Assembly: GCF_040253635.1 (NCBI RefSeq)
Contig: NZ_JBEJGX010000003.1
Location: 6,721,501-6,785,500 of the forward strand
Source of the DNA: Streptomyces sp. Edi2
Lineage (GTDB): Bacteria; Actinomycetota; Actinomycetes; Streptomycetales; Streptomycetaceae
Length of the DNA stretch: 64,000 nt
Reading direction: 5' to 3'
Under the pieces are notes generated by a model. The model was not told the origin of the DNA and ran no database searches. It saw only the letters and a list, made by a program, of their open reading frames with translations. The position numbers and the translations under genes were made by a program. The stretch's first letter is position 1, and every line of letters starts with the position of its first letter. This document shows positions 32,112-51,068 of this stretch, in pieces.

Positions 32112-33917
32112 CTAGCCCTGTACGGCCAGGACCAGCGGAAACACCTCTGCTGCCCCCGCCCGGCGCAGCAGCCGGGCGGCAACGGCCAGCGTCCAGCCGG
32201 TATCGGCGTAATCGTCCACCAGCAGCACGGGGCCGGCCGCCGACGCCAGCGCCTGCGCCAGCTCCGGCGGAACGCCCAGTGAACCGTGCAGCGCCCGCAG
32301 CCGCTGGGCACTGTTACTGCGCGGAATCCTGCCGTCGGCACCGTCGTCCACCGAGCTCACCGTCCCCAGGAACGGCATCCGGCCGACCGTGGCGATCCGT
32401 TCGGCCAGTGATCGGATCAGCTGCGGGCGGCTGCACGACGAGAGCGCGACAACGCCCACCGGGCGGGCCGGGGCATCCGCTGCCCCCGAGGCCCAACCAC
32501 CGGGCCCCTTGGCCCAGTCGGCGAGCACGGTGACCACCGCGGCGGCCACATCGTCGGGGACCGGGGCGTCCGGCGCCTGCGCCGCGAGCATCGGCCGGAG
32601 GCGGTTGCCCCACCCGATGTCGGACAGACGGCCCAGGGCCCGGCCGGTCGCCGCGAGCTCGCCTGCCGGGATGCGCCCCTTGAGGTCGACGCCGACGGCC
32701 GGCAGCCCCGTCGGCCACATCCGCCGCGGCTCCACTTCCACTCCGGGCCGCCCCAGCTCACCGCGCGCCGCATCCAGCGATGCGGCGGACACCTCGGCGG
32801 CGAACCGTGCCTCCGCGCAGTTGTCGCAGCGGCCGCAGGCCACGGCCGCCTCGTCGTCCAACTGCCGCCGCAGGAACTCCATCCGGCAGCCCGTGGTGGT
32901 GGCGTACTCCCGCATGGCCTGTTGTTCGGCCTCGCGCTGGCGGGACACCCACGCATAGCGCTCGGCGTCGTACGACCACGGCCGGCCGGTGGAGGTCCAG
33001 CCGCCCTTGACGCGCTGCACGGCCCCGTCCACATCGAGCACCTTGAGCATGATCTCCAGGCGCGAGCGGCGCAGTTCGACCTGTGGTTCCAGAGCCGGCA
33101 GCGACACCGGGCGGCCGGCGGCCGCCAGGACGTCCAGGGTCCGCCGCACCTGCTCCTCGGGCGGAAAAGCCAGCGAGGCGAAGTACTTCCAGATGGCCTC
33201 GTCCTCCCGCCCGGGAAGCAGCAGCACCTCGGCGTGCTTGACCCCGCGCCCCGCCCGCCCCACCTGCTGGTAGTAGGCAATGGGGGACGACGGCGAACCC
33301 ATGTGCACCACGAAACCCAGGTCGGGCTTGTCGAAGCCCATACCCAGCGCCGAGGTCGCCACCAGTGCCTTGACGCGGTTGGCGAGCAGATCGTCCTCGG
33401 CCTGCTGGCGGTCGGCGTTCTCCGTCTTGCCGGTGTACGAGGAGACCGTGTGCCCCCGCTGGCGCAGGAAGGCCGTGACCTCCTCGGCGGCGGCCACGGT
33501 GAGCGTATAGATGATCCCCGAGCCCGGCAGCTCGTGCAGATGATCGGCAAGCCAGGCGAGCCGGTGCGCGGCGTCCGGCAGCGGGAGGACACCCAGGCTC
33601 AGGCTCTCCCGGTCCAGCGGCCCGCGCAGCACCAGCGCCTCGGTGGAGCCCTCGCCTGTGCCGAGTTGTTCGGCGACATCGGCCGTCACCCGCGCGTTGG
33701 CCGTGGCGGTGGTGGCGAGCACGGGCACACCGGGCGGGAGATCGGCGAGCATGGTGCGCAGCCGCCGGTAGTCCGGCCGGAAATCGTGGCCCCAGTCGGA
33801 GATGCAGTGCGCTTCGTCGACCACCAGCAGACCGGTGGCCGTCGCGAGCTTGGGCAGCACCTGATCGCGGAAGTCGGGGTTGTTGAGCCGCTCGGGGCTA
33901 TGGAACGGGGAGGGCAT
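32112..33917 (-). pseudogene. Chromosomal RecQ-family helicase, 5' truncated (copy A)
   Basis: This frame encodes the DEAH box ([22 protein letters not shown]), the second RecA domain with motif VI ([11 protein letters not shown]), the zinc-binding CGRCDNC region and a C-terminal phosphoribosyltransferase-like end ([14 protein letters not shown]). The first half of motor domain 1, including Walker A, is absent. Homology to the intact copies at 34.1 and 47.2 kb stops at SPERLN, position 33,899. The six residues before it (MPSPFH) come from a repeated element. It is more diverged from copies B and C than those are from each other, so it is probably the native gene, cut by the island. The missing 5' part is not in this window. 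Confidence 0.85.
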
Positions 33918-33967
33918 TCAAATTCCAGGTGAATCTAGAGCCCTGACCTGCACAAACGCTCCGATCG
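33892..33967 (+). repeat. 76-bp direct repeat, copy 1 (island boundary)
   Basis: The sequence from TCGGGGCT to CCGATCG matches 47035-47110 at 64 of 76 positions with no gap, counted by eye. Its first 8 bases coincide with recQ copy A codons (AGCCCCGA on the minus strand). A shorter ungapped match of 37 of 51 positions exists at 39869-39919. It could be a recombinase attachment site or the end of an IS-like element. Confidence 0.75.
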
Positions 33968-34096
33968 AGGATTGGCGTGGCCGAGGGCTCCGCCCAGGCC
34001 GTCCTCGATGGGCGGGCGGCACGCGCACTCTTTGTGATCGCTTTATCGCGTTGGGTGGATTCGCTGATTGTCAGTGCCATCGGGTTGCATGGGGGT

Positions 34097-36256
34097 ATGG
34101 ACCATCTGGAGCTGCGTACTGAAGCCGACGCCGTCCTCGCTGAGCTGGTCGGTGATCCTGGAGGTTCGGCGCGTCTGCGGGAGGATCAGTGGCAGGCGGT
34201 GGCGGCTCTGGTGAAGGAGCGCCGACGTGCTCTGGTGGTGCAGCGCACTGGCTGGGGTAAGTCGGCGGTGTACTTCGTTGCCACCGCATTGCTGCGTCGG
34301 CGTGGCTCGGGTCCGACGGTGATTATCTCGCCGTTGCTGGCGCTCATGCGGAACCAGGTCGAGTCGGCGGCGCGGGCGGGGATCCAGGCGCGCACGGTTA
34401 ACTCGGCCAACCCGGAGGAGTGGGAAACGATCTACGGGGAGGTCGAGCGTGGTGAGACCGATGTTCTCCTCGTAAGCCCGGAACGCCTTAATTCTGTGGA
34501 CTTCCGCGATCAGGTACTGCCTAAGCTCGCGGCCACCGCGGGCCTGCTGGTGGTCGATGAGGCGCACTGCATTTCCGACTGGGGGCACGACTTCCGCCCT
34601 GACTACCGCAGGCTGCGCACCATGCTGGCAGAGCTGCCGGCTGGTGTGCCGGTGCTGGCTACCACCGCGACCGCCAATGCTCGGGTCACGGCGGATGTGG
34701 CGGAACAGTTGGGTACGGGTGGCGGGGATGCACTGGTGCTGCGCGGCCCGCTGGACCGGGAGAGCCTGCGGCTGGGGGTGCTGGTGCTGCCGGATGCGGC
34801 GCACCGGCTGGCGTGGCTGGGGGAGCGGCTGGAGGATATGCCGGGTTCGGGGATCATCTACACGCTGACGGTGGCGGCGGCGGAGGAGGTCGCGGCGTTT
34901 CTGCGGCAGCGCGGGTTTCCGGTGGCTTCCTACACGGGGAAGACGGAGAACGCCGACCGGTTGCAGGCGGAGGAGGATTTGCTCGCCAACCGGGTGAAGG
35001 CGCTGGTCGCCACTTCCGCGCTCGGTATGGGCTTCGACAAGCCTGACCTCGGCTTTGTGGTGCATCTGGGGTCGCCCTCGTCGCCGATTGCCTATTACCA
35101 GCAGGTGGGGCGTGCGGGGCGCGGCGTGGACCACGCGGACGTGCTGCTGCTTCCGGGCAAGGAGGACGAGGCGATCTGGGCGTACTTCGCTTCGGTGGGC
35201 TTCCCGCCCGAGGAGCAGGTCCGGCGCACTCTGGCGGTGCTGGAGGAGGCGGGGCGTCCGCTGTCGCTGCCGGCGTTGGAGCCGTTGGTGGATCTTCGGC
35301 GCTCGCGCCTGGAGACGATGCTGAAGGTCCTGGACGTGGACGGCGCGGTGAAGCGCATGAAGGGCGGCTGGACCGCGACGGGGCAGCCGTGGGCGTACGA
35401 CGCGCAGCGGTATGCGTGGGTCGCGAAGCAGCGGGCGGCGGAGCAGCAGGCCATGCGGGACTACGTGGCGACCTCGGGGTGCCGGATGGAGTTCTTGCAG
35501 CGGCAGCTCGATGATGAGAAGGCGGTCCAGTGCGGTCGCTGTGACAACTGTGCCGGGCCCTGGCTCGATCCCGCCATCTCGCCTGCGGCCCTTGCGGCAG
35601 CGACGGGGGAGCTGGACCGCCCCGGCGTCGAGATCGAGCCTCGCAAAATGTGGCCGACCGGGCTCGCCGCGGTCGGCATGGATCTTAAAGGCCGTATCCC
35701 TGGGGGCCAGCAGGCGGTCACTGGGCGTGCGCTGGGAAGGCTGTCGGATATCGGCTGGGGCAACCGCCTGCGGCCGGTCCTGGCGGCGCAGGCGGCGGAC
35801 GGGCCGGTCCCGGACGACGTGCTGGCCGCCGTCGTGAGGGTGATGGCCGACTGGGCTCGCTCGCCGGGCGGCTGGGCCAGTGGTTCTCCTGACGCGGTGG
35901 CGAGGCCCGTGGGCATCGTCGCCGTGCCCTCCCGCACCCGCCCCCAACTGGGCGCCTCCTTGGCCGAGGGCGTGGCTCGTGTCGGCAGGCTCCCGCTGCT
36001 CGGCAGCCTTGCCTACACCCCGCAAGCGGATGAGTTTGCGGCGCACCGCAGCAACTCCGCCCAGCGGCTGCGGGCCCTGGTTGCCTCGTTCACTGTGCCC
36101 GACGAACTCGCCGCCGCCCTGGCCGCTACCCCCGGCCCGGTCCTGCTCGTCGACGACTACACCGACTCCGGCTGGACTCTGGCCGTATGCGCACGCCTCC
36201 TGTGCCAGGCCGGAGCCGACCAAGTGCTCCCGCTCGTCCTTGCGTTGGCCGGGTAG
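34097..36256 (+). CDS. RecQ-family helicase with C-terminal PRTase-like domain (copy B)
   Basis: A 719-residue superfamily 2 helicase. Walker A is RTGWGKSAVYF (K55), then [37 protein letters not shown] and [11 protein letters not shown]. The RecQ zinc site is C...CGRCDNC at about 490-505. Residues about 683-698 carry the PRPP-loop-like VLLVDDYTDSGWTLAV, so the C-terminus looks like a ComF-type phosphoribosyltransferase fold. The ATG at 34097 was chosen to match copy C; a GTG at 33977 would add 40 residues. It is convergent with the next gene, 38 bp apart. It is nearly identical to copy C and may replace the broken copy A. Confidence 0.92.
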   Translation: MDHLELRTEADAVLAELVGDPGGSARLREDQWQAVAALVKERRRALVVQRTGWGKSAVYFVATALLRRRGSGPTVIISPLLALMRNQVESAARAGIQARTVNSANPEEWETIYGEVERGETDVLLVSPERLNSVDFRDQVLPKLAATAGLLVVDEAHCISDWGHDFRPDYRRLRTMLAELPAGVPVLATTATANARVTADVAEQLGTGGGDALVLRGPLDRESLRLGVLVLPDAAHRLAWLGERLEDMPGSGIIYTLTVAAAEEVAAFLRQRGFPVASYTGKTENADRLQAEEDLLANRVKALVATSALGMGFDKPDLGFVVHLGSPSSPIAYYQQVGRAGRGVDHADVLLLPGKEDEAIWAYFASVGFPPEEQVRRTLAVLEEAGRPLSLPALEPLVDLRRSRLETMLKVLDVDGAVKRMKGGWTATGQPWAYDAQRYAWVAKQRAAEQQAMRDYVATSGCRMEFLQRQLDDEKAVQCGRCDNCAGPWLDPAISPAALAAATGELDRPGVEIEPRKMWPTGLAAVGMDLKGRIPGGQQAVTGRALGRLSDIGWGNRLRPVLAAQAADGPVPDDVLAAVVRVMADWARSPGGWASGSPDAVARPVGIVAVPSRTRPQLGASLAEGVARVGRLPLLGSLAYTPQADEFAAHRSNSAQRLRALVASFTVPDELAAALAATPGPVLLVDDYTDSGWTLAVCARLLCQAGADQVLPLVLALAG

Positions 36257-36294: not shown

Positions 36295-37701
36295 CTACTG
36301 CTCGGAGTCAGGGCCGAAGAGCGATTCTTGCCTGTACACCTTGTGTACGTACGAATTATCTTTGGAGGTTCGAGTCCGATTGCGTTTTTGCCGGTCGCGC
36401 ACAGACTCGCTACTGTTTTCCTCGGCGACGAGGACATTGTTACCTTCACTGACGCGGCGCTTGACCATAGACCACAACTGCTCTCGCGTGGTGCCGACAG
36501 TGCCGACCAGTCCTTCCTTGACCAATTCGACAAATTGTGCGCCTACGAGGTGACGTTCGACTCGGTCGTAGCCCAGCAGTCGAGCTTGACTGCCTTTCTG
36601 GGGGCCGAGCGTGCAGTCGTTTTCAAGCAGCATGCGCACATAGGAAACCGGAAGGTACATTCCGTGCGAGAGTCCCTCGACTGGATTCTTGCGAGTGTCC
36701 TCGGGCCAGTGGGCGAGCTTGAGGAAGCAAGGGTCGCTTCCCAGACGCCATTCGTGCGGTTGCGTGGGCGGGCTGTTCAGCTGTGCCACTTTTTCGAGTC
36801 GATCAAGCTGACTTCGTAGCCGTTCGTCGACGCGTATCTCTCGCTTGCGTGGATCTAGGCGCTTGTATTGAACGAGTGTAAAACTCTTGGTGGGCACGTG
36901 ATAGTAGATCATGTCGGTTCCGGTCCGGGACTCCAGTGGAAGGGCGTTTACGTTGGTCACCTCGAGCCGTCGCCCGCTCGAATCCCAAAGCACGTTGATG
37001 TCGCATCTGGCCCCGCTCCCGTTCACCCAGTCACTGTCCAGGCCGAACGCCCGTCCTGCGGCGCGCACATCATGGTCGATCAGGCTGTTTTCCGAGGGCT
37101 GCGGGATGATGCCTGCCGTGTAAGGCGCGTCGCGGGACTCGGGGCGCTTCCAGGCGTTTAGTGAAGGCAGAGGGAAATCGGCGATTCGCAAGATGCTCCG
37201 GACCGCGTCTTGCTGTTCCTGCCAGGCTTGATCTGCTTCGTCATGGCTGTCTAGTACAGGGGGATTGGCCTGGGCCAGCAACCAGTCGATCAGCGGGACG
37301 AGACGGGGAAACTTCGCACGGAGCCCTCTTTCAAGTGCCTGCCAGACCTCACCGCTGCACCATCTGGCTGTGCCGATGAGACTTGCTCGTTCGAATTCGT
37401 TCCGCAAGTCAGATTCCAACAGGGCAAGAAGGCCGTCCTCTCCGTCGAGTGGCACATCTTCCATGCACTCACGCAGCGGATCGATGGTGATGCTCTTGTC
37501 GACGGTGCCGGGTGTGTTGTGGCGGGCCACGCTACCCATCCAGATCAGCTGTCTGGATCGCCGGCCGGCGCTGTTCTCCGTGTCTTCGCTGATGACCAAG
37601 GCCATTGGCGGGCCTACATTCGGCCCAACTGGCTGATCCTGCGCTGCGAGGACCTTGGTCAGGCGGAGCTGTAAGCGCAGTCGATCATGGATCTTTGTCA
37701 T
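36295..37701 (-). CDS. Uncharacterised protein with a possible QxK-type nuclease motif
   Basis: A 468-residue protein without a confident family. A segment in the middle, RRLEVTNVNALPLESRTGTD followed by MIYYHVPTKSFTLVQYKRLD, has the spacing of a PD-(D/E)xK nuclease with a Mrr-like QxK end (QYK). The C-terminus is Lys/Arg/Ser-rich. The ATG at 37701 (MTKIHDRLRLQL) was chosen because GCGAGG precedes it; the frame stays open to 37782. Codons are less GC-biased than in the core. It is convergent with recQ copy B and divergent from the serine recombinase gene. A nuclease role is inferred. Confidence 0.65.
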   Translation of the reverse strand: MTKIHDRLRLQLRLTKVLAAQDQPVGPNVGPPMALVISEDTENSAGRRSRQLIWMGSVARHNTPGTVDKSITIDPLRECMEDVPLDGEDGLLALLESDLRNEFERASLIGTARWCSGEVWQALERGLRAKFPRLVPLIDWLLAQANPPVLDSHDEADQAWQEQQDAVRSILRIADFPLPSLNAWKRPESRDAPYTAGIIPQPSENSLIDHDVRAAGRAFGLDSDWVNGSGARCDINVLWDSSGRRLEVTNVNALPLESRTGTDMIYYHVPTKSFTLVQYKRLDPRKREIRVDERLRSQLDRLEKVAQLNSPPTQPHEWRLGSDPCFLKLAHWPEDTRKNPVEGLSHGMYLPVSYVRMLLENDCTLGPQKGSQARLLGYDRVERHLVGAQFVELVKEGLVGTVGTTREQLWSMVKRRVSEGNNVLVAEENSSESVRDRQKRNRTRTSKDNSYVHKVYRQESLFGPDSEQ

Positions 37702-37893
37702 CTGCCTCGCTGGCAGCGTCACGATGTAGGCCACGGTCGGAGCGTAGTGCGAGCGATCATCGTGCGAGCCAGCTTGCCTCATCTTGGACTGCCTGGCGCT
37801 GCCTTCAGACGTGTGTGTTCGGATGGACTGTTGGGGACGGTCCGCTCCCTGCGAAGGTTTTCACGGCCTGCATCCTGGGGTAACGGGGCTGAC

Positions 37894-39924
37894 GTGCAGG
37901 ATTTTCACGCGGCCCTGGTGGCGACGCGGCTGCGGTCGGGCCGGCGGACATTGCGGGCTGTGGACTACCTGCGTGTGTCGACGGAGGAGCAGGCCAAGGG
38001 GTACGGCATTGCGTACTCGGGGAAGAAGACGGCCGGGTACATCAGTCAGAAGGGCTGGGAACACGTCGGCACTTTTGTCGACGAGGGAGTCTCCGGGGCT
38101 TTGGAGTCCCACCAGCGCCCGGATCTGCGGCGGCTGATGGAGCGGGCGTGGACGGTCCCGCGGCCCTTCGACATCGTCGTCGTGAACGAGGGCCGGGCCA
38201 TCGGCCGTACCGGGCGCGCCTTTTGGAGATGGGTCTGGGAACTCCAGGAAATCGGCATCTTCGTCGCCGTGGTCAAACGGGACTACGACAACAGCACTCC
38301 CGAGGGGGAGAGCAAGATGCGCAAGGACGCCGATTACGCCGAGGACGAGCGGGAGATCATCCGCGAGCGGACCCAGGGCGGAATCCAGGAGAAGGCCGAG
38401 AGCGGCGGTTACATTGGCGGCAAGGTCCCTTACGGCTACTGCGTCGGGGCGGGTCGCCTCGTCCTGGATGAGTGCCGTAAGGGCAGGGACTGCGCGGCCA
38501 AGCACGAGGCGTGCGCGTTGCGGCGGGGCCGGACGCTGTATGTCGCCTTGCGGGACTGGAGCCAGGCGGCGCTCGCGGTGAATACGGAGGGCTACAGGAG
38601 GCGGGACGGCGGGCTGTGGGGCGGTCAGAGTCTGCGCCAGCAGGTGCTTAACCCCATCGTCCTGGAGGCACGGCAGGTGTTCCGCGGCTCTGGGGGAGTA
38701 CGGCGAGACCACGAGGGACGGCCGGTGAACGGCGAGCGGGTGGTCATCCCGCTACCGCCGGTCTTCACCCCGGCCGAGGTCGAGGAACTCCGGGCGGCCA
38801 GCGGGCGCCCGGTTCGCACATTGCAGAAGGCCCGTGTCTACACCCTCAGTGGCCGGATCGTCAGCCCCTGCGGTAAGCGCTACATCGGCGGGGGAACGAT
38901 CCTGAGGACGAAGGCATACCGGTGCCAGGGTCGGAGTAGGGCATACGCCGGCGCACCCACGTGCTCCTGCCCCTATCTGGCTGCTGATCCGGTCGAGGAG
39001 CGGACCTGGCGAAGAGTGAGGACGCTTCTCGGCGACGCCGACCGTCTCAAGGGAATCGCTGGCTGCCAGAGCGAGCCATCAGCCGCCCAGTGTGACGGCT
39101 CGAGGGAGCGCAGGGGCGAACTCGACCGGCAGATCAGGATCCACAGGCAGGCCCTCGCCATCGCCCTCGGTGTGGCCGCGAAGGAAGTCGCCGCGCTCGA
39201 TCTGGGTCTGGAGGAATCGGAGAGGGCGGTGGTGCGCCAGATCGCGCCGCTGCAGGCTGAACTCGGCGTACTACTCGATGCCCGGAGGGAGCTGAAAGCC
39301 CGGCTGGCGGAATCGGATGCGGCACGAGAGCGGTCCGCTCAATTGGTCGAGCTTGCGGCCATGACCCGACGGATGTGGAGCGGCCTTCCGCTGAAGCGGC
39401 AGAAGGAGCTCATGGCCGCACTGGACGTTGAGGTGACGTTCCTTGAACCGCCTCAGCAGGGGCGCAAGGGGCAGCTGTGCGCGCTGACTGCGTGGTTCAC
39501 CGACAGGAGACTGCTGGTCCCGCTGCTGACCGATGAGGGCTGGGCGACGATCGAGCCGATGATCACCCACCGGCCGCGGGGAGTTAGTCCCCGGCTGGTA
39601 ATGACCGGAATCCTCTACAAGGCCCGCACCGGCAAATCCTGGAGCGCTCTCCCCGACCTGTTCGGCTGTCCCTCGACGTTGCAAACCTATGCGGCCCGCT
39701 GGCGCGAGTCCGGCTTCTGGGAGAACGCCATGCGATCCCTCGCCGCTGCCGAGGGCACACCAGTGCCTGCATCACCTGAGATGAAAACCCGGATCGGGTG
39801 CTCCATCGAGCCACGGAAGCTGCTGAGCAGCGCGCAGTGGGGGAGCATCAACACCTCACTGCCGGACCATGGTACGGGGAGGGCGTTCAGGTTCCGGATA
39901 GAGCTGGAGCCCTGTTCCCAATAG
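37894..39924 (+). CDS. Large serine recombinase/integrase with a transposase-like C-terminal tail
   Basis: A 676-residue large serine recombinase. The catalytic Ser is in VDYLRVSTEEQAKGYG near residue 30. The resolvase domain continues through EGVSGALESHQRPDL and NEGRAIGRTGRAFW; the recombinase domain (EKAESGGYIGGKVPYGY) and a Cys-containing zinc-ribbon region (CSCPYLAADPVEERTW) with a coiled coil follow. The last 130 residues, from LLTDEGWATIEPMI, resemble the N-terminal DUF4096 part of IS5-type transposases (GILYKARTGKSWSALPDLFG). The GTG at 37894 starts VQDFHAALVATRLR; the frame is open to 37687. It probably moved this island or a cassette in it. Confidence 0.88.
   Translation: MQDFHAALVATRLRSGRRTLRAVDYLRVSTEEQAKGYGIAYSGKKTAGYISQKGWEHVGTFVDEGVSGALESHQRPDLRRLMERAWTVPRPFDIVVVNEGRAIGRTGRAFWRWVWELQEIGIFVAVVKRDYDNSTPEGESKMRKDADYAEDEREIIRERTQGGIQEKAESGGYIGGKVPYGYCVGAGRLVLDECRKGRDCAAKHEACALRRGRTLYVALRDWSQAALAVNTEGYRRRDGGLWGGQSLRQQVLNPIVLEARQVFRGSGGVRRDHEGRPVNGERVVIPLPPVFTPAEVEELRAASGRPVRTLQKARVYTLSGRIVSPCGKRYIGGGTILRTKAYRCQGRSRAYAGAPTCSCPYLAADPVEERTWRRVRTLLGDADRLKGIAGCQSEPSAAQCDGSRERRGELDRQIRIHRQALAIALGVAAKEVAALDLGLEESERAVVRQIAPLQAELGVLLDARRELKARLAESDAARERSAQLVELAAMTRRMWSGLPLKRQKELMAALDVEVTFLEPPQQGRKGQLCALTAWFTDRRLLVPLLTDEGWATIEPMITHRPRGVSPRLVMTGILYKARTGKSWSALPDLFGCPSTLQTYAARWRESGFWENAMRSLAAAEGTPVPASPEMKTRIGCSIEPRKLLSSAQWGSINTSLPDHGTGRAFRFRIELEPCSQ
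39869..39919 (+). repeat. Direct repeat, diverged copy 2
   Basis: It aligns without gaps to 33900-33950 at 37 of 51 positions, with most differences being transitions. It overlaps the last codons of the recombinase gene and lies about 120 bp after the transposase-like tail, as copy 3 lies about 110 bp after a transposase remnant. Confidence 0.6.
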
Positions 39925-40198
39925 ATGCACCGTAGGGGTGGGGCGGTCCAGAGCACCGGCCAAAACCCTTCTCGACCTGTAGGCCCTCAATCGGAATGTC
40001 CCGTTCCGCTGTGGCAACCTGCGCATTCTCAGCACGTCTTATTCAGACCATGCGGAGTGGGATCGTCTCCAGGTCCTCCTATGCGCTGGCCAAACCAAGA
40101 CGGCATGGTCAGACCTCGTTTCACGGGCATATTGATCCTGCTCGGCGATCAACTGGAATAGTCTGGCCACAGGTAGGGCGGGATGTCGGGGGTGCACC

Positions 40199-41722
40199 GT
40201 GCAGAGCAGTGACTCAGATGGAGTCGTTCAGGCCAGCGGGACTCCGCTGGGCTCGCTTTTTAGCCAGGTGGGCGGGCTTCGATTCAAGCGCGAAAAGGTC
40301 CCTGCGCGCACGTCAGGAGCGATTCGCATCGTGGTGCCCCGCGACATCGGACACGACGGTTCACTTGCCGCCCCCGATCCGACGAGCAGTTGGGTGGTGC
40401 CTCCGGATAGCCTGCCGCGGCTCGAGGCCGGCGACATGATCGCGACTGAAGTTCTCGCCGCGGACGGCAGCATCAGGGCCGCAGTGGTTACAGAGGCAGA
40501 CCTACCAGCTGTTGCGAGTGACAGCGTGCTGGTGCTGCGTTCCCACGAGCCACTCGATCCCGGGTACGTGCGGTGGGTTCTTGCCTTCTTGCGCTCGTCG
40601 GACCTCCGGGCGATCGCTATCGGAACAGTCGGAATCGTCCGTGTGAAGCGGAGCGATCTGGTCAACCTCGAAATTCCGCCCCTGAATGACGCTCTAGCTG
40701 CGGCCTTGGACGATCTGGCCATCGTCCGAGAGCGGATGAGCGATTGGCAACGTGCCGCTACTCAGCTACTCCAGTCGGCGTTCCGTGACCGCAACGTCGT
40801 TCAGGCGCGTGAGCGGATCATCGCTTCTGGACAGACGCTGCGGCTGCGAGTCGAAGCAGCGACGCAGCTGGATGAGTTCGGCTACATCATCCGTACACGT
40901 TTCCCATTTCCGATCGCCGCGCGTTGGCGAGAAGTGGAAGTGCGGATGAGCGCCGGCGAACCGAAGGAAGCCTATGAGGCGGTGCTCGCCACGGCCGAGA
41001 TCCTGTGTGGCTACAGTGCCCTGATAGTCGCGGCGCTCGCCCGTGAGGCGGGCATCGAACTCAGCTCCGTTCGCGCTATCCGGGAGAAACTGGCAGGGGG
41101 GCGCACAGGTCCCGGGTTCGGGGAATGGGTTGCGGTTCTTGAGGAGATCGTCAGCGGACGTAAGCGGAGAACGCTACCTGCGGAACACCCCCTACACGAG
41201 TTCGGTTCCCTGCTCTCAGGTTCCGAGACCGTAGCAGCACGCAAGCGGCTCTACGATCAGCGCAATGCCGTGGCGCACCACCGCGGCCCCGATCACGTAG
41301 AACTTCCTGCTGCCCTGAGCAGCGCTCACGCTGATCTATCCAAGCTGTTGGACCGGGCACGCTTTCTCGCCGACCTGCGCCTGGCGTACTTCACGGACGT
41401 GCGATGGGATCAGTTGCTAGGGTCCGCGACTGTGGACTACCGGAGCATGATGGGGGACCACCCGGTAGTCCCGACCAACATCATGTCGAGCAGCCGCAAC
41501 GACCTTGAGCCCGACAGCCTGTATCTGATTGACCGCGAGCACGGACTGCATCTCCTGCGTCCATTTCTGATTGGCCGCCCGTGCCCAAGGTGCCGGAACT
41601 GGTCAACCTTTCATGTTGATCAAGTTCCTCGCAGCGGGGCTGTACTGAAAAGCCTTGACCATAGTCACACTCTGCCCGATGCCGCAGTGGGCGTTTCGTT
41701 GTCGGCGGTTGGCTTGATCTAG
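40199..41722 (+). CDS. HsdS-like target-recognition protein with a HEPN-like motif
   Basis: A 507-residue protein. Residues about 25-185 look like a type I restriction specificity (HsdS) target-recognition domain: GDMIATEVLAADG, DSVLVLRSHEPLDPGYVRWVLAFL, IGTVGIVRVKRSDLVNLEIPPL and a following helix ERMSDWQRAATQLL. The second half is helical and contains R355-N-A-V-A-H360, the Rx4H signature of HEPN RNases. A CPRC zinc-knuckle-like pair lies near residue 462. No HsdM or HsdR gene is adjacent. It is 274 bp downstream of the recombinase. The GTG at 40199 has no strong RBS. A self-contained DNA-sensing effector is an inference. Confidence 0.7.
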   Translation: MQSSDSDGVVQASGTPLGSLFSQVGGLRFKREKVPARTSGAIRIVVPRDIGHDGSLAAPDPTSSWVVPPDSLPRLEAGDMIATEVLAADGSIRAAVVTEADLPAVASDSVLVLRSHEPLDPGYVRWVLAFLRSSDLRAIAIGTVGIVRVKRSDLVNLEIPPLNDALAAALDDLAIVRERMSDWQRAATQLLQSAFRDRNVVQARERIIASGQTLRLRVEAATQLDEFGYIIRTRFPFPIAARWREVEVRMSAGEPKEAYEAVLATAEILCGYSALIVAALAREAGIELSSVRAIREKLAGGRTGPGFGEWVAVLEEIVSGRKRRTLPAEHPLHEFGSLLSGSETVAARKRLYDQRNAVAHHRGPDHVELPAALSSAHADLSKLLDRARFLADLRLAYFTDVRWDQLLGSATVDYRSMMGDHPVVPTNIMSSSRNDLEPDSLYLIDREHGLHLLRPFLIGRPCPRCRNWSTFHVDQVPRSGAVLKSLDHSHTLPDAAVGVSLSAVGLI

Positions 41723-42850: not shown

Positions 42851-43270
42851 ATGACGGGGACGGCACGCGTGTGGATATCGGTGACGGCTGCGTTGACCGG
42901 CCTGGCGACCGTCGGGCTGGCCCTGGGCGCTGTTTTCGCGGACCCCGACACGACAGAGCGGACCGTGGGGGTGGTGGGTGCGGTCGTCGGATTGGTGACC
43001 TTGCTGGTGTCTGTGATCGCCCTGTTCCGCAACACGGGTGGCGGGTCTACAGGTGGGCGGCGCGTGCGCGGCGGCCGTGGATCGGTCGTGGCCGGCGGCA
43101 GCATCACCGGCTCCGCGATCGGGAACAACTCAAAGGTGACTGGTCCCCACACCACGCCCAGTAGCACTGCAGCGAGGCGGAACGTGGATGACGTGCGAGC
43201 TGGTCGAGACGGGATCGCGGCCGGCGGTGACATCACGGACAGCGCCCTTGGGGAAGGTAGCGAACGGTGA
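42851..43270 (+). CDS. Small two-TM protein with GGxITxSxxG motifs, partner of the TPR-PIN protein
   Basis: A 139-residue protein. Two hydrophobic helices, about residues 8-29 and 39-59, precede a soluble tail that contains a motif twice: GSVVAGGSITGSAIGNNSKV (78-97) and AGRDGIAAGGDITDSALGEG (117-136). The first is almost the same as residues 35-54 of the next protein. Such glycine-rich turns could form a short beta-solenoid or assembly tag. The ATG at 42851 was chosen because it gives a clean first TM segment; the frame is open to 42683. The stop overlaps the next start by 4 bp (GTGA), so the two are coupled. No family is recognised. Confidence 0.7.
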   Translation: MTGTARVWISVTAALTGLATVGLALGAVFADPDTTERTVGVVGAVVGLVTLLVSVIALFRNTGGGSTGGRRVRGGRGSVVAGGSITGSAIGNNSKVTGPHTTPSSTAARRNVDDVRAGRDGIAAGGDITDSALGEGSER

Positions 43271-46200
43271 AGCCGTTTTCCTGGATTCGCCGTAAGGGGA
43301 AGATCGCCGCCTCAGAGGGTGAAGCAGTTCCCGTCGAAGCTGCGCGGACGGTGTCCGCCGGTCCGGGTGCGGTTGTCGCTGGCGGAGCAATCACAGGTTC
43401 TGCGATCGGTGACAACAACACGGTCACGTACATTGAGAAGCAGTACGTGACCGACGGGGGCGCAACGCTGGGGGCGGGCCGGTCCTGCTTCGATCAGGCG
43501 CTAGCCACGCTGCCACCCGTATTCCAAGAAGAAGCACGTCAATTGCGTGATCGCTGGCCTGACGTGGAGGCGGTCGTCAATCAGCTTCCGACGGGTAGGA
43601 CTGCACGCAAGAAGATATTGGAGCAATGGGCCGAGCACGAGCCACGATGGCTCGCCAGCGCCCCCGTCCAGGCATTTCCTTGGCTAGCCCACCTGGCGTC
43701 GACATACGATGCTCGCACCGCATCCTTCTCTTTCTATGACCGGGCGGTACGCGACGGCGGATACCCTCGTGACCTCCTGGTCGTGCGGGCTGCTCTGCAG
43801 GCAGAGACAATGCCCGAGGGCAGCGCGCGCTCGTACCTGGCCGCCCATCAAGACCTTGACTCGCCACTGGTCTGCGCCTTGCAATTTGCTTTGGACGGCG
43901 ACCGGCCCGCGGCCCTGAACCACCTCAACCGGTGGACAGCTCCTGATGACAGCGCGCATGCTCTGCAGCTTCTCCTGAGAACGGACGCCCTCGTAGGGCA
44001 GGACTTGACCGACCAGGCCCTGCCAGCACTGCGTGAGGCGGATGTCGCACGCTTTCCTCAGCTTGGGCTGGCGCTGGCACAGGCTCTGCTGCAGCGAGCC
44101 ACGCGCCGCGCTACACGCAGTAAGCTCGCCGACGCCCAGGAAGCCCTGGCCGTCGCCCTCCGTGTGCGTAACGCACGTCGGGAATGGTTCGGTGACAGCG
44201 CGGCGGCGGTGGTCCTGGGAATACAGGCCGCAGTGTTCAGCCAGGATCTGTCGACCGCGTGGGCTCTCTCGCAGCTGGCTCCAGAAGGAGACGCTGACGC
44301 GCAAGAAGCGGAGGATCCTCGGGTCCAGGAGGAAAGTGCCCTGATCGCGGCGCTGACGGGCCGCGAACACCGGGCGCGCGCACTTTTGAGCGTGGTGACA
44401 AGCCCGTTCGCGAAAGCGCAGGTGCTGGCTGTGCTCGAAGAACGCCGTGCCGGTAGCGACAGCGAGGACGAGCGAGTAGCTGAAGCCTGGCAACGCGCCT
44501 GGGATGCAGCGGAGCCAGGGCCCGAACAGCTTATGGCGGCCATGGGGCTGGTTGAGTCTGGGCGGAACCTGCCGGAGATCGCTCACCTGAAGAACGATTA
44601 TCCCGAGGCAGTAGGGGATCTCGAGAAGTTCGCCCGCGCCGTCAGCGGTAAAATGGGCGGCGATCTGGTGGTCCTGCGCGCCAACGCGAACCAGAGTCCG
44701 ATCATCGCCCTGAAACTGGCGCAGCGCTATCAGCAACTCGATGATCGCGAAACGGCCGCGGCCACCCTGCAGGAAGCCGCGGCACAATGGCGCGATGCGC
44801 AGCTGATGGCAATGGCAGCCCGTACCTACCAACAAGCCAGGGACTACGAGAAGGCTAAGGAGTGCGCTGAGAGTGCGCTGCGGATCGCTGGCCCGGGTTG
44901 GGCAGCACAGGGCGCGATGTATGAGCTGCTCGTTGAGACGGAATCCGCCGCAGGGAACTGGGAGCGGGCCACGGACGCGGCCATCGTCCTCCTGGGACTG
45001 GATCCGCACAATCTTGACGCACGCTGGGCCCTGGTGAGGTGCTACGTCATACGGGCACGGCCCGACGAAGCATGGCGGACACTCACCGAATTCAGGGAAG
45101 CGGCTCCACCACGGCGCCGAGACGAAGCGCTCCTGTGGGTCCAGCTCGGTGCACGTCGCTCTACTGATCCCCAATTCATCGGGCGTGCGCTGGAGCTGAT
45201 GCAGAACTGGCCACAGGATGAAGAACTCTTGGGGACTTTCCTGGGCGTTCTTCTCTGGCGCACCACTACGACGCAGCCCATGAGTGCAGAGGCGGCCGAG
45301 CTGCTGCATGAAGCGAGCTCGGACTACCGGGAACGCTTCCCGAACAGCGTCTACTTCCGCGCCCTCGATGCCACCGATCCACAAGCGGTACTCGAAGAAA
45401 TCGGCGAGGGCCTACGCCGTGAGCACGAGGGCGAGGGCCGTCGGGAAATCCGAGAGCGGATCAATCAGGGCCAGCTTCCCATCGGGATGCTGGCTCCTAT
45501 GAGTGGCAGGTCGTACGCCGAAGTGTGCGTGCGGCTCACTGTAGAACGTCCTGGCCTGTTTGCCTCCGACCCGACCGCAATCACGGTGGAAGCAGGCGCA
45601 ATCCAGGTCGCGCTCACCCGGCGGGTGGTCGTGGATACGAGTGCGGCGGTGTCTCTCGCCGTGTTGGAGCCGGGCGCCGCCGAACGGCTCATCGGCTCCT
45701 GCCAGAGCATCGTGACAACCGACCAAATCGTCGGCGATGTTTTCCACGCCGTCGACTCATTCGCCCTGCGGTCCGATGCCACGCTGGTCTGGAATGAGGA
45801 CGAATCACGGCCGATTCTTCACGTTGCGCCGGACGGGCAGGTGAGCGCCTTGCGTCGCACCCTTGAGCGTGCCGCCGACATCGTGCGGTCACTGCCCCGA
45901 GTGGCCCGACCAGAGCTGCGCGCACTGCCGGGGCTGCCTGCCGGACGGGGCGCGGAGATATGGCTCACGGCCCTGGATCATGCCAAGGAGCACGGCCTGG
46001 TGTTGTGGTGCGACGACCGAGCTCTGCGGAGGTTCGCCCGGTCGGCGGGTGTACCCGCATTCGGAACGCTCGCCCTGATCGACGCGTGCCAACGCCAGCA
46101 GACCATGGCACCACAGGAGGCGATGGTCCTGAGAGCCGAACTCCTGCGGCATTTCTACATGGACATCCCCTTCGCCAGTGACCTGTACGGTTTCGCGGCG

Positions 46201-46674
46201 CAGGCCGACGGCTGGCACGCACGAGGAGTAGCTGCCGCGATCGCACGACCGACAGCCTGGAGCGATCCGTGGGGCGTGGTGCGGTTGGTCCTCAAAGCAG
46301 TTGCACAGACCATCGATTCTGAACCGGACCATGCTTCGGCTTGGCTGACAGCTGCTTACGCGGGCCTCTGGCGGGCAACGCTGCCCTCCCACAGGTCCGG
46401 CAACCTGCAGAAGCTTTCCGTCCAAGCCCTGACGCAGCCCTGGGTCTCCGACTCATCACTGCCCTTCCTCCTAGGAGGTCTACACAACGGGGCCGCAGAG
46501 GTTCAAAGCAGTGACGGTCCACTGATGGCTGCCCTGGCTCGCTACTACGAGGCGCTGATTCAGCAAATGGGCCATCCCTGGGCAGGAACGGCGCTCATGA
46601 ACCTGTTCAGCCACGCTGCCGAAGCGGACAAGTCTGCAGCTGCACGCATCGTGCTCACCCACCGAGACGGGTAG
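43267..46674 (+). CDS. Large TPR protein with a C-terminal PIN-like nuclease domain
   Basis: An 1135-residue protein. Residues 35-54 carry VVAGGAITGSAIGDNNTV, shared with the membrane protein encoded just upstream. Residues about 110-690 are alpha-helical repeats; the clearest TPR-like units lie at about 470-660 (ALKLAQRYQQLDDRETAAATL, ARTYQQARDYEKAKECAESAL). Residues about 785-945 look like a PIN domain: D790 in RVVVDTSAAVSLAVL, E897 in GAEIWLTALDHAKEHG, and D916-D917 in LVLWCDDRALRRFARSAGVPAFG. PIN domains usually cut RNA. A C-terminal helical region of about 190 residues follows. It starts with GTG inside the preceding stop. A membrane-associated, sensor-controlled RNase is inferred. Confidence 0.75.
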   Translation: MKPFSWIRRKGKIAASEGEAVPVEAARTVSAGPGAVVAGGAITGSAIGDNNTVTYIEKQYVTDGGATLGAGRSCFDQALATLPPVFQEEARQLRDRWPDVEAVVNQLPTGRTARKKILEQWAEHEPRWLASAPVQAFPWLAHLASTYDARTASFSFYDRAVRDGGYPRDLLVVRAALQAETMPEGSARSYLAAHQDLDSPLVCALQFALDGDRPAALNHLNRWTAPDDSAHALQLLLRTDALVGQDLTDQALPALREADVARFPQLGLALAQALLQRATRRATRSKLADAQEALAVALRVRNARREWFGDSAAAVVLGIQAAVFSQDLSTAWALSQLAPEGDADAQEAEDPRVQEESALIAALTGREHRARALLSVVTSPFAKAQVLAVLEERRAGSDSEDERVAEAWQRAWDAAEPGPEQLMAAMGLVESGRNLPEIAHLKNDYPEAVGDLEKFARAVSGKMGGDLVVLRANANQSPIIALKLAQRYQQLDDRETAAATLQEAAAQWRDAQLMAMAARTYQQARDYEKAKECAESALRIAGPGWAAQGAMYELLVETESAAGNWERATDAAIVLLGLDPHNLDARWALVRCYVIRARPDEAWRTLTEFREAAPPRRRDEALLWVQLGARRSTDPQFIGRALELMQNWPQDEELLGTFLGVLLWRTTTTQPMSAEAAELLHEASSDYRERFPNSVYFRALDATDPQAVLEEIGEGLRREHEGEGRREIRERINQGQLPIGMLAPMSGRSYAEVCVRLTVERPGLFASDPTAITVEAGAIQVALTRRVVVDTSAAVSLAVLEPGAAERLIGSCQSIVTTDQIVGDVFHAVDSFALRSDATLVWNEDESRPILHVAPDGQVSALRRTLERAADIVRSLPRVARPELRALPGLPAGRGAEIWLTALDHAKEHGLVLWCDDRALRRFARSAGVPAFGTLALIDACQRQQTMAPQEAMVLRAELLRHFYMDIPFASDLYGFAAQADGWHARGVAAAIARPTAWSDPWGVVRLVLKAVAQTIDSEPDHASAWLTAAYAGLWRATLPSHRSGNLQKLSVQALTQPWVSDSSLPFLLGGLHNGAAEVQSSDGPLMAALARYYEALIQQMGHPWAGTALMNLFSHAAEADKSAAARIVLTHRDG

Positions 46675-46924: not shown

Positions 46925-47034
46925 CCGTCGGTCCAATCAGACGCGCCGGTCAGGTAGTCCGCGGGCAGGTGTCCACAGACGTGAGCAGTGAGTCGCATGT
47001 GCCGTTGCCGCTTGCATTTGGAGAAGTCAGTGGT

Positions 47035-47110
47035 TCGGGGCTGCCGAACGGGGAAGGCATTCAAATTCCAGGCCGAGTTGGAGCCCTGACCTGCATAAAC
47101 GCGCCGATCG
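47035..47110 (+). repeat. 76-bp direct repeat, copy 3
   Basis: It matches 33892-33967 at 64 of 76 positions without gaps. Its end lies 130 bp from the ATG of recQ copy C, exactly the distance between copy 1 and recQ copy B. It also starts with TCGGGGCT although no recQ coding sequence adjoins it on the left, so these bases belong to the repeat as well as to the recQ target. Confidence 0.75.
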
Positions 47111-47239
47111 GGGGCGAGGTGGTCGAGCGCTGGGCCCTGGCCATCCTTGATCGATGCGTGGTGGGAGGGGCCGTGCGCAAGCTGCTTGTCACGCTGGGTG
47201 AGTTAGTGGATTGTCAGTGGCATCGGGTTGCATGGGGGC

Positions 47240-49399
47240 ATGGACCATCTGGAGCTCCGCACTGAAGCCGACACCATCCTCGCTGAGCTGGTCGGTGACC
47301 CCGGGGGTTCGGCGCGGTTGCGGGAGGATCAGTGGCAGGCGGTGGCGGCGCTGGTGGAGGAGCGCCGACGGGCGCTGGTGGTGCAGCGTACTGGCTGGGG
47401 CAAGTCGGCGGTGTACTTTGTGGCCACTGCTCTGCTGCGCCGGCGTGGCTCCGGGCCGACGGTGATCATCTCGCCGCTGTTGGCGCTGATGCGGAACCAG
47501 GTCGAGTCGGCGGCGCGGGCCGGGATCCAGGCGCGCACGATCAACTCGGCCAATCCGGAGGAGTGGGAAACCATCTACGGGGAGGTCGAGCGCGGCGAGA
47601 CTGACGTTCTCCTCGTAAGTCCGGAACGCCTCAATTCCGTGGATTTTCGCGATCAAGTGCTGCCCAAGCTTGCGGCCACGACTGGCTTGTTGGTGGTTGA
47701 CGAGGCGCACTGTATTTCCGACTGGGGCCATGACTTCCGCCCTGATTACCGCCGCCTGCGCACGATGTTGGCGGAGTTGTCGGCGGGTGTGCCTGTGCTC
47801 GCCACGACGGCGACGGCGAACGCGCGGGTGACCGCGGATGTGGCAGAGCAGCTGGGCACGGGGGGCGGGGATGCTCTGGTGCTGCGGGGGCCGCTGGACC
47901 GGGAAAGTCTGCGGCTCGGGGTGCTCGAGCTGCCCAATGCGGCGCATCGGCTGGCGTGGCTGGGCGAGCGACTAGGGGACCTTCCGGGTTCCGGGATCAT
48001 CTACACGCTGACGGTCGCGGCGGCCGAGGAGGTCGCGGCGTTCCTGCGGCAGAGCGGGTATCCGGTGGCCTCCTACACGGGGAAGACGGAGAACGCCGAC
48101 CGGCTGCAGGCGGAGGAGGATCTGCTGGCGAACCGGGTGAAGGCGCTGGTCGCCACGTCCGCGCTGGGGATGGGCTTCGACAAGCCGGACCTGGGATTTG
48201 TAGTGCATCTGGGGTCACCCTCGTCTCCGATCGCCTATTACCAGCAGGTAGGGCGTGCGGGGCGTGGTGTGGATCATGCGGATGTGCTGCTGCTGCCGGG
48301 GCGGGAGGACGAGGCGATCTGGGCGTACTTCGCTTCGGTGGGCTTCCCGCCCGAGGAGCAGGTGCGGCGCACGCTGGCGGTACTGGAGGAGGCGGGCCGT
48401 CCACTGTCGCTGCCGGCGCTGGAGCCGCTGGTGGATCTTCGGCGCTCGCGCCTGGAGATGATGCTGAAGGTCCTGGACGTGGACGGTGCGGTCAAGCGTG
48501 TGAAGGGGGGCTGGACGGCCACCGGGCAGCCGTGGGCGTACGACGCGGAGCGGTACGCGTGGGTCGCGAAGCAGCGGGCGGCGGAGCAGCAGGCCATGCG
48601 GGACTATGTGGCGACCAGGGGGTGCCGGATGGAGTTCTTGCAGCGGCAGCTGGACGACGAGAAGGCGGTCCCGTGCGGTCGCTGCGACAACTGTGCCGGG
48701 CACTGGCTGGAGGCGGTGGTCTCTTCCTCAGCACTCGCGGCGGCGGCAGGCGAGCTGGACCGTCCGGGGGCAGAGATCGAACCACGCAAGATGTGGCCGA
48801 CCGGGCTCGCCGCGGTCGGCATGGACCTGAAAGGCCGTATTCCCGTGGGCCAGCAGGCGGTCACCGGGCGCGCGTTGGGCAGGCTGTCGGACATCGGCTG
48901 GGGCAACCGCCTGCGCCCCCTGCTGTCGGCGCAGGCCACGGATGGGCCGGTCCCGGAGGACGTGCTGGGTGCCGTCGTGACGGTGCTGGCCGACTGGGCG
49001 CGCTCGCCGGGCGGCTGGGCCAGCGGCTCCTCTGACGCGGTGGCGCGGCCGGTGGGGATCGTCGCCATGCCGTCGCGCACCCGCCCGCAGTTGGTCGGCT
49101 CACTGGCTGAGGGCGTGGCCAGGGTCGGCAGGCTCCCGCTGTTGGGCACCCTGGTCTACACCTCGCAGGCGGATGAGTATGCGGCGCACCGCAGCAACTC
49201 CGCCCAGCGGCTGCGAGCCCTGGCCGCCTCGTTCACCGTGCCCGACGAACTCGCCGCCGCTTTGGCCGGCACTCCCGGCCCGGTCCTGCTCATCGATGAC
49301 TACACCGACTCCGGCTGGACCCTGGCGGTAGGCGCACGCCTCCTGCGTCAGGCCGGTGCCGATCAGGTGCTCCCGCTCGTCCTGGCTCTGGCCGGATAG
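47240..49399 (+). CDS. RecQ-family helicase with C-terminal PRTase-like domain (copy C)
   Basis: A 719-residue protein, the same length as copy B and nearly identical throughout, with scattered substitutions. Walker A (RTGWGKSAVYF), [30 protein letters not shown], the zinc site CGRCDNC and the C-terminal VLLIDDYTDSGWTLAVGARL are all intact. The ATG at 47240 has GGGGG upstream; a TTG at 47228 is also possible. It is convergent with the AbiJ-like gene, 55 bp apart. The changed partner gene with the same helicase suggests cassette exchange. Confidence 0.92.
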   Translation: MDHLELRTEADTILAELVGDPGGSARLREDQWQAVAALVEERRRALVVQRTGWGKSAVYFVATALLRRRGSGPTVIISPLLALMRNQVESAARAGIQARTINSANPEEWETIYGEVERGETDVLLVSPERLNSVDFRDQVLPKLAATTGLLVVDEAHCISDWGHDFRPDYRRLRTMLAELSAGVPVLATTATANARVTADVAEQLGTGGGDALVLRGPLDRESLRLGVLELPNAAHRLAWLGERLGDLPGSGIIYTLTVAAAEEVAAFLRQSGYPVASYTGKTENADRLQAEEDLLANRVKALVATSALGMGFDKPDLGFVVHLGSPSSPIAYYQQVGRAGRGVDHADVLLLPGREDEAIWAYFASVGFPPEEQVRRTLAVLEEAGRPLSLPALEPLVDLRRSRLEMMLKVLDVDGAVKRVKGGWTATGQPWAYDAERYAWVAKQRAAEQQAMRDYVATRGCRMEFLQRQLDDEKAVPCGRCDNCAGHWLEAVVSSSALAAAAGELDRPGAEIEPRKMWPTGLAAVGMDLKGRIPVGQQAVTGRALGRLSDIGWGNRLRPLLSAQATDGPVPEDVLGAVVTVLADWARSPGGWASGSSDAVARPVGIVAMPSRTRPQLVGSLAEGVARVGRLPLLGTLVYTSQADEYAAHRSNSAQRLRALAASFTVPDELAAALAGTPGPVLLIDDYTDSGWTLAVGARLLRQAGADQVLPLVLALAG

Positions 49400-49454: not shown

Positions 49455-50738
49455 TCAACGGGGTGGGAAGAGCGTACGGGTGAGGTCTTCGCGGAGCCGC
49501 TCTTTCACGGATGCGGGATCGCTGGTGTGTTCGTGGGCGATCCGGATCGTGTGGATACCACAGCGGGCCCAGTGCCGGTCGCGGTCTTCGTCGTCGGCTT
49601 TGCGGGTTCGGCCGTAGTGGTGCGGGCCGTCGACCTCGATGATGACGGCCCGGCCGTTCCCCAGGACGGTGAAGTCGGGGCTGCGTACACCGGCGTCGCG
49701 CAGCTTGGCCGAGGCGAGCGGCAGGATGGCCATGCCGTTCTGGGTGGGGCGCTCGCGCTGGAGTTCTTGGAGGACGTGGTAGACAGCGAGTTCGGCCCTG
49801 CTGGCGAACACGAGGTCGTCTGCTGTCGGGTATCCCTCGTTGCTCTTCCTTTCCCGGCGTGCCTGGTTGGTCGGGGTGAGGGGGTCAGTGTCTTGGTGCC
49901 GCCAATCCTGGGTGATGCCGGGGAAGGGGCGGAGGGCGGCCTCGACAACGAGCGATTGGACGTCTTCGCGCTCTAGCCGCTTGAGCACGGTTGCCAGCCG
50001 CTGCCAGATCACGTCGGTCACTGCCGTAGTGAACTCGGGTACGAGTGCACGGTCGGCGGTGATGACAGCTTCATAAGTGTCGGCTGTCCAGTTGTCATTG
50101 GGCATCGGATGGAAGATGCCGCCGTCGCGGCGCAGGGTGAGCTTGGCGGAGCGGACGAGGTCGCGAGCCAGCCCCTCACCGTCTTCGTCGAGAAGGTGGT
50201 AGGTCTGGCCGAGGACGAGATCAAGTTTGCTGGCGTCGTCGTCCCTCAGCGGCAATGCGATCAGCGGGCCACCGGTGTTTTCCGGGACCGGCGTGTAGAC
50301 CGGCCGGCCCGACAGGAATGCGTGGGCGCGTAGGGCCCAGCCGTCCGGTGCCAGGAGCCGGTTCAGTTCATCGACACGCCTGGCTGACTGATCGGTGTCG
50401 GCTTGAACCGCGGGGTGGACCGTCCGTGCGAGGAACGCCAGGAGGAACTCGTCGGGTCCCTCAAGAAGTTGGAACCGGGCGTCCTCGAAAACCCAGTCGT
50501 CCTCCCAGTCGAAGTTGCTCACCCGGTGCTGGATGATGTCGCCGCGAGCGGTCGGCCGACGCGAGTCGGTGGAGGGCAAGGCATCCAGGTCGTACAGGCT
50601 CTCCAGGAAGGTGACTTCTTCGAGCCGCCCCCACCATCCGCCCTCTGCGCTGCGCAGGAAGTCGAAGATGTCGCGCCGGGTCACCGCTGTGATCTTCTGC
50701 GAGGTGCCCTGAGCAGGTGAGGTGTCGCGTGGAGTCAT
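49455..50738 (-). CDS. AbiJ-NTD-like / DUF559-like nuclease fusion protein
   Basis: A 427-residue protein. The N-terminal 130 residues (TRRDIFDFLRSAEGGWWGRL, FLESLYDLDALPSTD, FQLLEGPDEFLLAFLARTVH) fit the AbiJ N-terminal domain group found in abortive-infection proteins. The C-terminal 110 residues look like a DUF559/Vsr-type PD-(D/E)xK nuclease: RSPDFTVLGNGRAVIIEVDG, HHYGRTRKADDEDRDRHWAR and IHTIRIAHEHT, with D and ExD as likely metal ligands. The ATG at 50738 begins MTPRDTSPAQG. It is convergent with recQ copy C, the slot taken by an unrelated gene in the other cassette. An abortive-infection effector role is inferred. Confidence 0.78.
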   Translation of the reverse strand: MTPRDTSPAQGTSQKITAVTRRDIFDFLRSAEGGWWGRLEEVTFLESLYDLDALPSTDSRRPTARGDIIQHRVSNFDWEDDWVFEDARFQLLEGPDEFLLAFLARTVHPAVQADTDQSARRVDELNRLLAPDGWALRAHAFLSGRPVYTPVPENTGGPLIALPLRDDDASKLDLVLGQTYHLLDEDGEGLARDLVRSAKLTLRRDGGIFHPMPNDNWTADTYEAVITADRALVPEFTTAVTDVIWQRLATVLKRLEREDVQSLVVEAALRPFPGITQDWRHQDTDPLTPTNQARRERKSNEGYPTADDLVFASRAELAVYHVLQELQRERPTQNGMAILPLASAKLRDAGVRSPDFTVLGNGRAVIIEVDGPHHYGRTRKADDEDRDRHWARCGIHTIRIAHEHTSDPASVKERLREDLTRTLFPPR

Positions 50739-50794
50739 GAACCCAGAATGGCGTGCTGTTTGCCTGTCTGCCGGGTTTTTGTGTCATGCCCATC

Positions 50795-50880
50795 GGGGTA
50801 GCGAATCTGACGTGCAAAACCCTCACGTGGCGGCTGTGGTGGCGGCCCGGCTGCGTGGGAGCAGACCGCCGAATCCAGCG
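50795..50880 (+). pseudogene. Remnant of a serine recombinase gene start
   Basis: From GGGGTA at 50795 through a GTG at 50812, the DNA resembles 37877-37960, the start of the intact recombinase gene, with the same 17-bp spacing from GGGGTA to GTG and a shared CTGACGTGCA. The encoded VQNPHVAAVVAARLRGS parallels VQDFHAALVATRLRSG. Similarity then ends. It marks the end of the second RecQ cassette. Confidence 0.55.
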
Positions 50881-51068
50881 GTCGGCGGCTGTCTGGTTCC
50901 GGTCGCTGTTGCCAGCGGCAAGTGGCGTCAGCGATGGTCGCGTTGATGGTCTGTGCGCCAGACCACAGGACCCAGGCGGCTGACGTGTCCCCTGTCCGGC
51001 AGCTGTGTCACTGACGTCAGCTAGGTTTGACTGGCTGGCCGCTATGGGAGCGATGGAGGGGGAGTCCT

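Follow-up and report, generated by a model that had tools for sequence, protein, structure and literature searches.

RqlH, a RecQ-PRTase helicase, was reportedly described from M. smegmatis by Ordonez et al. In Escherichia coli, the PRTase domain of RqlH causes genotoxicity when the DprA-like RqlI is absent, and variants with a dead helicase retained effects, according to the report on that system (PMC4670107). Among genomic islands, some are known to compensate for the gene they hit, with the dusA-specific elements (IMEVchUSA3) and the ICE SXT in prfC as examples (PMC8409611). Likewise, there are large serine recombinases that target conserved genes, and their targets are enriched for DNA competence genes; the main text of that study makes no mention of DUF4096 or a helicase (PMC10083194). 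Moreover, serine-integrase ICEs of actinomycetes are in some cases located within protein genes or disrupt them (PMC3218068). Among the papers listed in our search of the open-access literature, there was no report of an element that carries a whole substitute for its target, which then replaces the target. Here, we describe a Streptomyces island that, in all likelihood, inserts by means of its integrase in the native helicase gene and brings along a substitute, which has repeatedly replaced the host gene.

The window, i.e., the whole 64,000-nucleotide stretch of DNA analyzed (G000:C3:6721501-6785500 in the 9.8-Mb genome of the source strain, G000), contains the left end of an island of 170,523 bp that sits within the native helicase gene. 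To the left of the island are the RNase HII gene of the conserved host flank (29374..30168, plus strand; Pfam RNase_HII, 6e-34) and a conserved host gene without a Pfam match that adjoins the native helicase (31182..31892, minus strand). Then follows the C-terminal part of the native helicase, comprising about residues 127-719 (32112..33899, minus strand), whose N-terminal counterpart is located 170 kb away (G000:C3:6925909-6926337, minus strand). The two pieces have the 14-bp AGCCGCTCGGGGCT in common, which forms the attL core at 33886..33899 and recurs 170,523 bp away as its attR partner at G000:C3:6925909 (L089:7909-7922). In fact, in silico joining of the island flanks gave an uninterrupted helicase frame that matches intact relatives, and the island thus has an integrase at one end, attL and attR sites with a common core, and an in-frame empty site, as befits a serine-integrase element. 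The native C- and N-terminal pieces are 92.9% and 93.7% identical, respectively, to the native helicase of S. rhizoryzae (L043), to which the flanking genes are also nearest, with the RNase HII being 93.1% identical. A related insertion in genome G028 likewise has left and right junctions that agree with each other, as they do in G000. Since the common core amounts only to TCGGGGCT in genome G204 and to TCCGGGCT in G028, the true core may be shorter than 14 bp. As a separate observation, the open reading frame of the native C-terminal piece (32112-33917) takes its start codon from the island side (33886-33917) and begins with MPSPFH; a PRTase-bearing fragment might be produced from it.

A complete substitute helicase (copy 1; 34097..36256, plus strand) starts 198 bp inward of the left junction. 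Pfam assigned to it the DEAD and Helicase_C domains, with RecQ_Zn_bind just below the cut-off (24 of 25 bits), and both DEAH and CxxCxxC were read by eye, i.e., the RecQ-like DEAH helicase core with Zn-binding cysteines that characterizes RqlH and PsyrT. Its PADLOC match to PsyrT (710 bits, profile positions 7-682 of 689), along with the motif VLLVDDYTDSGWT seen by eye, points to the C-terminal PRTase, for which there is no separate Pfam match. We accordingly class the protein, from these profiles and motifs, as a RecQ-PRTase of the RqlH/PsyrT type, and the remark of the first-pass annotation that no such system had been described was mistaken as regards the helicase itself (PADLOC; PMC4670107). 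No DprA-like antitoxin (PsyrA/RqlI) was matched among the neighbors scanned with Pfam and PADLOC, and the helicase there lacks the adjacent partner that defines the PsyrTA/RqlHI toxin-antitoxin systems. A match to this helicase was found in all 295 genus genomes searched (293 at E=0, the other two at 1.4e-276 and 1.7e-280), and its usual locus has DUF4192 on one side and a gene without a Pfam match plus RNase HII on the other. The conserved native neighbors are DUF4192, RNase HII (adjacent in the large majority of relatives), and two genes without a Pfam match.

At the right end of the island lies a serine integrase of 666 amino acids (P0006) with Resolvase and DUF4096 domains, and a zinc ribbon just below the Pfam cut-off. 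It stops just past the core at attR, and therefore the integrase gene crosses the attachment site; the left end of the island bears codons resembling the last ~17 of this gene. These belong to repeat copy 1 (33892..33970, plus strand), the "76-bp repeat" of the first-pass annotation, which represents the island side of the attachment site and holds the last ~17 integrase codons plus the stop. Repeat copy 2 (47035..47113, plus strand), 84% identical to it across 79 nt, is an integrase 3' end ahead of a second helicase, at a buried junction that is attachment-site-like. Both translate to codons resembling the last ones of a further enzyme, serine integrase B, with copy 2 reading GCRTGKAFKFQAELEP and then a stop. 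Integrase B (37894..39924, plus strand) has Resolvase and a C-terminal DUF4096, with Zn_ribbon_recom just below the cut-off, and is complete at its 3' end, which is itself repeat copy 3 (39861..39939, plus strand); the repeat is therefore integrase-gene DNA. This third copy and the truncated minus-strand helicase (32112-33917) had both been overlooked before. Although integrase B (55% identical to the terminal integrase of the island) is complete, no helicase comes next after it, which counts against the explanation we prefer.

The order of repeat and helicase does occur twice, as first noted, and in both cases the helicase ATG (34097 and 47240) is 205 bp from the start of the repeat (33892 and 47035). 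Helicase copy 2 (47240..49399, plus strand), placed by tree and identity, has 719 codons like copy 1, and the two are alike, but "nearly identical" overstates 93% protein and 88% DNA identity. Duplication as an assembly artefact is unlikely, given that 12% of bases differ between the copies and that other genomes show this type of insertion too. A serine recombinase follows in both instances, in full at 37894-39924 and as a remnant resembling the gene start at 50812..50890 (plus strand; judged by eye against 37894). A fragment like the end of an IS5-type transposase was also seen by eye at 46780-46925, just ahead of repeat copy 2. The two cassettes would be two members or generations of one element family, stacked in one island.

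The integrase family was found at E<=1e-60 in 25 of the 295 genomes and at the helicase in three of these, besides which G259 has an integrase fragment. The complete integrase of G028 ends about 100 bp short of the attR core and not on it. In the flanks of 80 named loci, there was no match to integrase A or B at 1e-5, and the inspected part of the 1e-4 list for them gave one weak partial match. All of this likewise counts against the preferred explanation. The remaining integrase relatives examined sit elsewhere in the chromosome, and their C-terminal tails diverge beyond the common region; these other DUF4096-type integrases look as if they too cross an attachment site. Separately, we noticed DUF4096-type relatives (L177-L194) at several other chromosomal places, some of the loci having the same downstream neighbors. 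The exact core is absent from 43 of 43 foreign helicase copies and present in 16 of 59 others, which could mean that the foreign helicase is immune to the integrase, though these rows are related to one another, and G028 argues otherwise.

By a simple gene caller, the island has 144 genes, the native C-terminal piece included. Among ten of them scanned beyond the window, matches included a TraG/TraD coupling protein, NlpC/P60, an EccE-like protein, and FtsK, as well as a Mu-type transposase, an ABC transporter, and a glycosyl hydrolase, with three lacking any match; from TraG/TraD and its companions, the island is probably a conjugative element. No free plasmid or phage form close to the element was found, with queries of viral contigs made with sequences other than the helicase; this is a further point against the preferred explanation. 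Inside the window, each helicase is followed by a convergent gene. Partner 1 (36295..37782, minus strand) belongs to a family without a Pfam match, and an open reading frame is indeed present at the 36295-37701 first given, but its start is uncertain and the longest frame reaches 37782. The family has 159 homologs, with a QYK motif invariant among the 120 matches listed, and the predicted model has a weak likeness to a VcaM4I-type N-terminal domain and to an Hjc-like (PD-(D/E)XK) domain, i.e., it weakly resembles a base reader joined to a nuclease. Partner 2 (49455..50738, minus strand) carries AbiJ_NTD3 (Pfam, 4.5e-47) as had been proposed, whereas the nuclease half of the suggested fusion has just weak DUF2726/MTES_1575/DUF559-type matches at the C-terminus, all below the cut-off. 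The two partners have no Pfam match in common, in keeping with their having been called unrelated. Other plus-strand cargo comprises a protein without an assigned family (40199..41722), an endonuclease VII-like protein (42211..42750; Pfam, 1.9e-11), and a PIN-TPR-GreABC domain protein (43267..46674; Pfam, 1.4e-14). Further along is a plus-strand row of an HmaA-like helicase (51027..54572; PADLOC, 6e-191), an HmaB-like methyltransferase (54556..57279; 2.6e-135), and an HmaC-like ATPase (57325..60135; 2.1e-115), which together (51027-60135) make a candidate Hma defense system. A PtuA/PDC-M01A-like ATPase (60501..62099, plus strand; PADLOC, 1.6e-194 and 2.1e-164) and a PDC-M01B-like HNH protein (62099..62929, plus strand; PADLOC, 2.3e-98, with Pfam HNH at the cut-off) were additionally observed as a Septu-like pair (60501-62929). 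The Hma-, PtuA/HNH-, and AbiJ-NTD3-like genes bear out that defense-type cargo is present, and we regard them and the convergent genes as island cargo. On the related island of G028 (L175:11048-15647), a PD-T4-6-like kinase and two pPIWI-RE system genes were seen downstream of the substitute helicase.

Insertions at different stages are found in other genomes. Fresh cases are G000 and G028, the latter with a C-terminal piece open for 600 codons and the foreign helicase 199 bp off (198 in the window), and with the N-terminal piece (residues 2-131) and an integrase 56% identical to that of the island on another contig. The insertion point is the same as in the window on both sides in G028 and on one side in G204. 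Partly decayed is G204, where an integrase remnant (residues 399-666) abuts residues 5-132 of the N-terminal piece, and so are G254 and G273, in which the C-terminal piece has a large internal deletion and its distance to the helicase is about as in the fresh cases. Also partly decayed are S. flaveus (L009), with the native N-terminal piece and the last 32 residues, and G264 and L012, with C-terminal bits. No native remnant was detected at most other inverted loci, which represent the finished stage. The longer native pieces in G000, G028, G204, and G254 are nearest to the same relatives as the flanking genes (those of G273 and L009 are too short to place); being fragments of each host's own lineage, they therefore mark separate insertions.

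Across the genus, we examined the best 80 of 590 confirmed relatives, among which the copies nearest to the window helicases carry SPERLNSVDF and are, in 21 of 21 cases, at the native locus but inverted, whereas all 54 other copies with context have the native orientation (five of the 80 lack context). A further 20 of 20 top-identity genus loci are also inverted, and counting once the duplicate of S. anulatus L013 (L124) leaves 40 distinct inverted loci. Both sets were picked by similarity to the window and are therefore not a random sample. In 295 evenly drawn genomes, codon patterns gave the foreign type in 73, the native type in 210, both in three, and neither in 15; when tables were compared by hand, the three with both proved to be G000, G028, and G273, in each of which a native fragment adjoins the foreign gene. 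About a quarter of the sampled Streptomyces species thus carry the foreign-type helicase, inverted, in place of the native gene. In a FastTree helicase tree, the 43 foreign rows (including both window copies and the duplicate) form a single clade, with subclades of 27 rows (including the window copies) and 16 rows; the G028 substitute is nearest to the latter (mean identity of 87% versus 80% to the 27-row subclade). On the flank-gene tree (FastTree, 88 rows, 37 foreign), there are 21 label changes, at least 13 of which are forced by well-supported branches, although long branches were flagged and the changes are gains or losses whose mechanism the tree does not discern. A single helicase clade set against at least 13 changes on the flank tree, together with the remnants and the inversion, therefore argues that islands have repeatedly and independently replaced a core host gene. 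Moreover, dN/dS is about 0.07 for three pairs of foreign helicases (dN 0.03, dS 0.42-0.47) and about 0.07 between the two window copies, which indicates strong purifying selection.

From this, we propose that a large DUF4096-fused serine integrase puts the island into the native helicase where this encodes SPERL (about residues 127-132). In the chromosomal state, the integrase body ends at attR, and the likeness of its last ~17 codons lies at attL with the complete helicase directly behind; the circular form would have the order integrase, attP, helicase. As the host helicase is split, the oppositely oriented island copy would supply the function at once; its intactness and the selection on it, both read from sequence, suggest functional substitution, by which the island would compensate for the damage to its target. 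Thereafter, the interrupted native gene would decay along with most of the island, the inverted foreign helicase would be kept by selection, and the host would depend on it. That spread is by a serine recombinase, as originally supposed, is supported.

Alternatively, the inverted allele could stem from few insertions and have since spread mainly by homologous recombination through the flanking genes, free of any integrase. We regard this as possible though rather unlikely: an integrase or native remnant is missing at most inverted loci and the tree changes are blind to mechanism, but own-lineage native fragments lie beside the foreign helicase in G000, G028, G204, and G254, and the helicases borne by the fresh insertions of G000 and of G028 belong to two different foreign subclades. 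A PsyrTA/RqlHI-type toxin effect, by which a helicase that is split or on its own would damage the host and so penalize insertion or loss while an intact copy protects, seems improbable. It would suit the near full-length PsyrT match, the genotoxic PRTase of E. coli RqlH without RqlI and the effects of its helicase-dead variants (PMC4670107), and the open C-terminal piece in G000 and G028, which keeps the PRTase without the N-terminal ATP-binding part; however, neighbors scanned have no DprA-like or PsyrA match, and the helicase is found without such a neighbor at its conserved locus.

We consider very unlikely the original interpretation of a defense module in which the RecQ-PRTase helicase works with exchangeable convergent nuclease effectors. 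A convergent gene does accompany the helicase in each window cassette, AbiJ_NTD3 being present in one product and the model of the other being weakly nuclease-like, and the PsyrT match and the toxicity of E. coli RqlH without its DprA-like partner (PMC4670107) would fit. Yet the helicase is in all 295 genomes, and at the 40 distinct loci the gene next to the foreign-clade helicase runs convergently in 12 (four of them within 100 bp), on the same strand in 27, and missing in one, with none of the 12 resembling either window partner, so that a survey of convergent neighbors reveals no conserved partner. Pfam on ten neighbors from seven loci gave six matches (UreD, M1 peptidase, AMP-binding/PP-binding, RPE65, MFS, and a weak ABC) and none for the other four, and PADLOC matched none of ten in a partly different set. 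Hardly credible is the idea that recombination inverted the host helicase locally and that an island later inserted nearby, for while orientation differs at a constant place, the foreign clade is distinct from the native gene of each host, whose fragments adjoin it, as in G000, G028, and G273. Returning to insertion and replacement by the island, we offer tentatively, as a reading that may well not hold, that it is a self-establishing, gene-drive-like 'target takeover': the element cuts a universal gene, brings a diverged substitute uncut by its own integrase, and binds the host once the original decays, having rewritten a core helicase genus-wide and used the slot for defense cargo.

Gene-patching islands being known, what sets this case apart is that a whole replacement becomes the host copy, and has done so time and again, in about one quarter of the Streptomyces species sampled. 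The stages from fresh insertion through to completed takeover can be read as a series. Whether horizontal core-gene replacement is a selfish strategy can thereby be put to the test, and the case yields a family of serine integrases whose genes run across their own attachment site, together with a defined attB; as a warning, 'modules' of helicase neighbors at such places can be cargo. Compared with RqlH/PsyrT systems, the window helicase shares the RecQ-type Zn region, the C-terminal PRTase motif, and the near full-length PsyrT match, but has no RqlI/PsyrA-like neighbor in view, and is a core chromosomal gene and an integration target. The dusA elements and SXT use tyrosine-type integrases. Like islands of large serine recombinases (as characterized in PMC10083194), the Streptomyces island has a serine recombinase and a conserved target site within a gene, but differs in the DUF4096 C-terminus, the integrase 3' end across the attachment site, and the target gene carried along; versus actinomycete serine-integrase ICEs, it has a TraG/TraD-type coupling protein beside an FtsK protein. 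As with the dusA elements (IMEVchUSA3) and SXT, the island inserts in a protein gene and would compensate for the damage. In contrast, those elements repair the interrupted gene itself with a hybrid 5' end, whereas the Streptomyces island brings a complete separate gene in opposite orientation, and this substitute ends up replacing that of the host.
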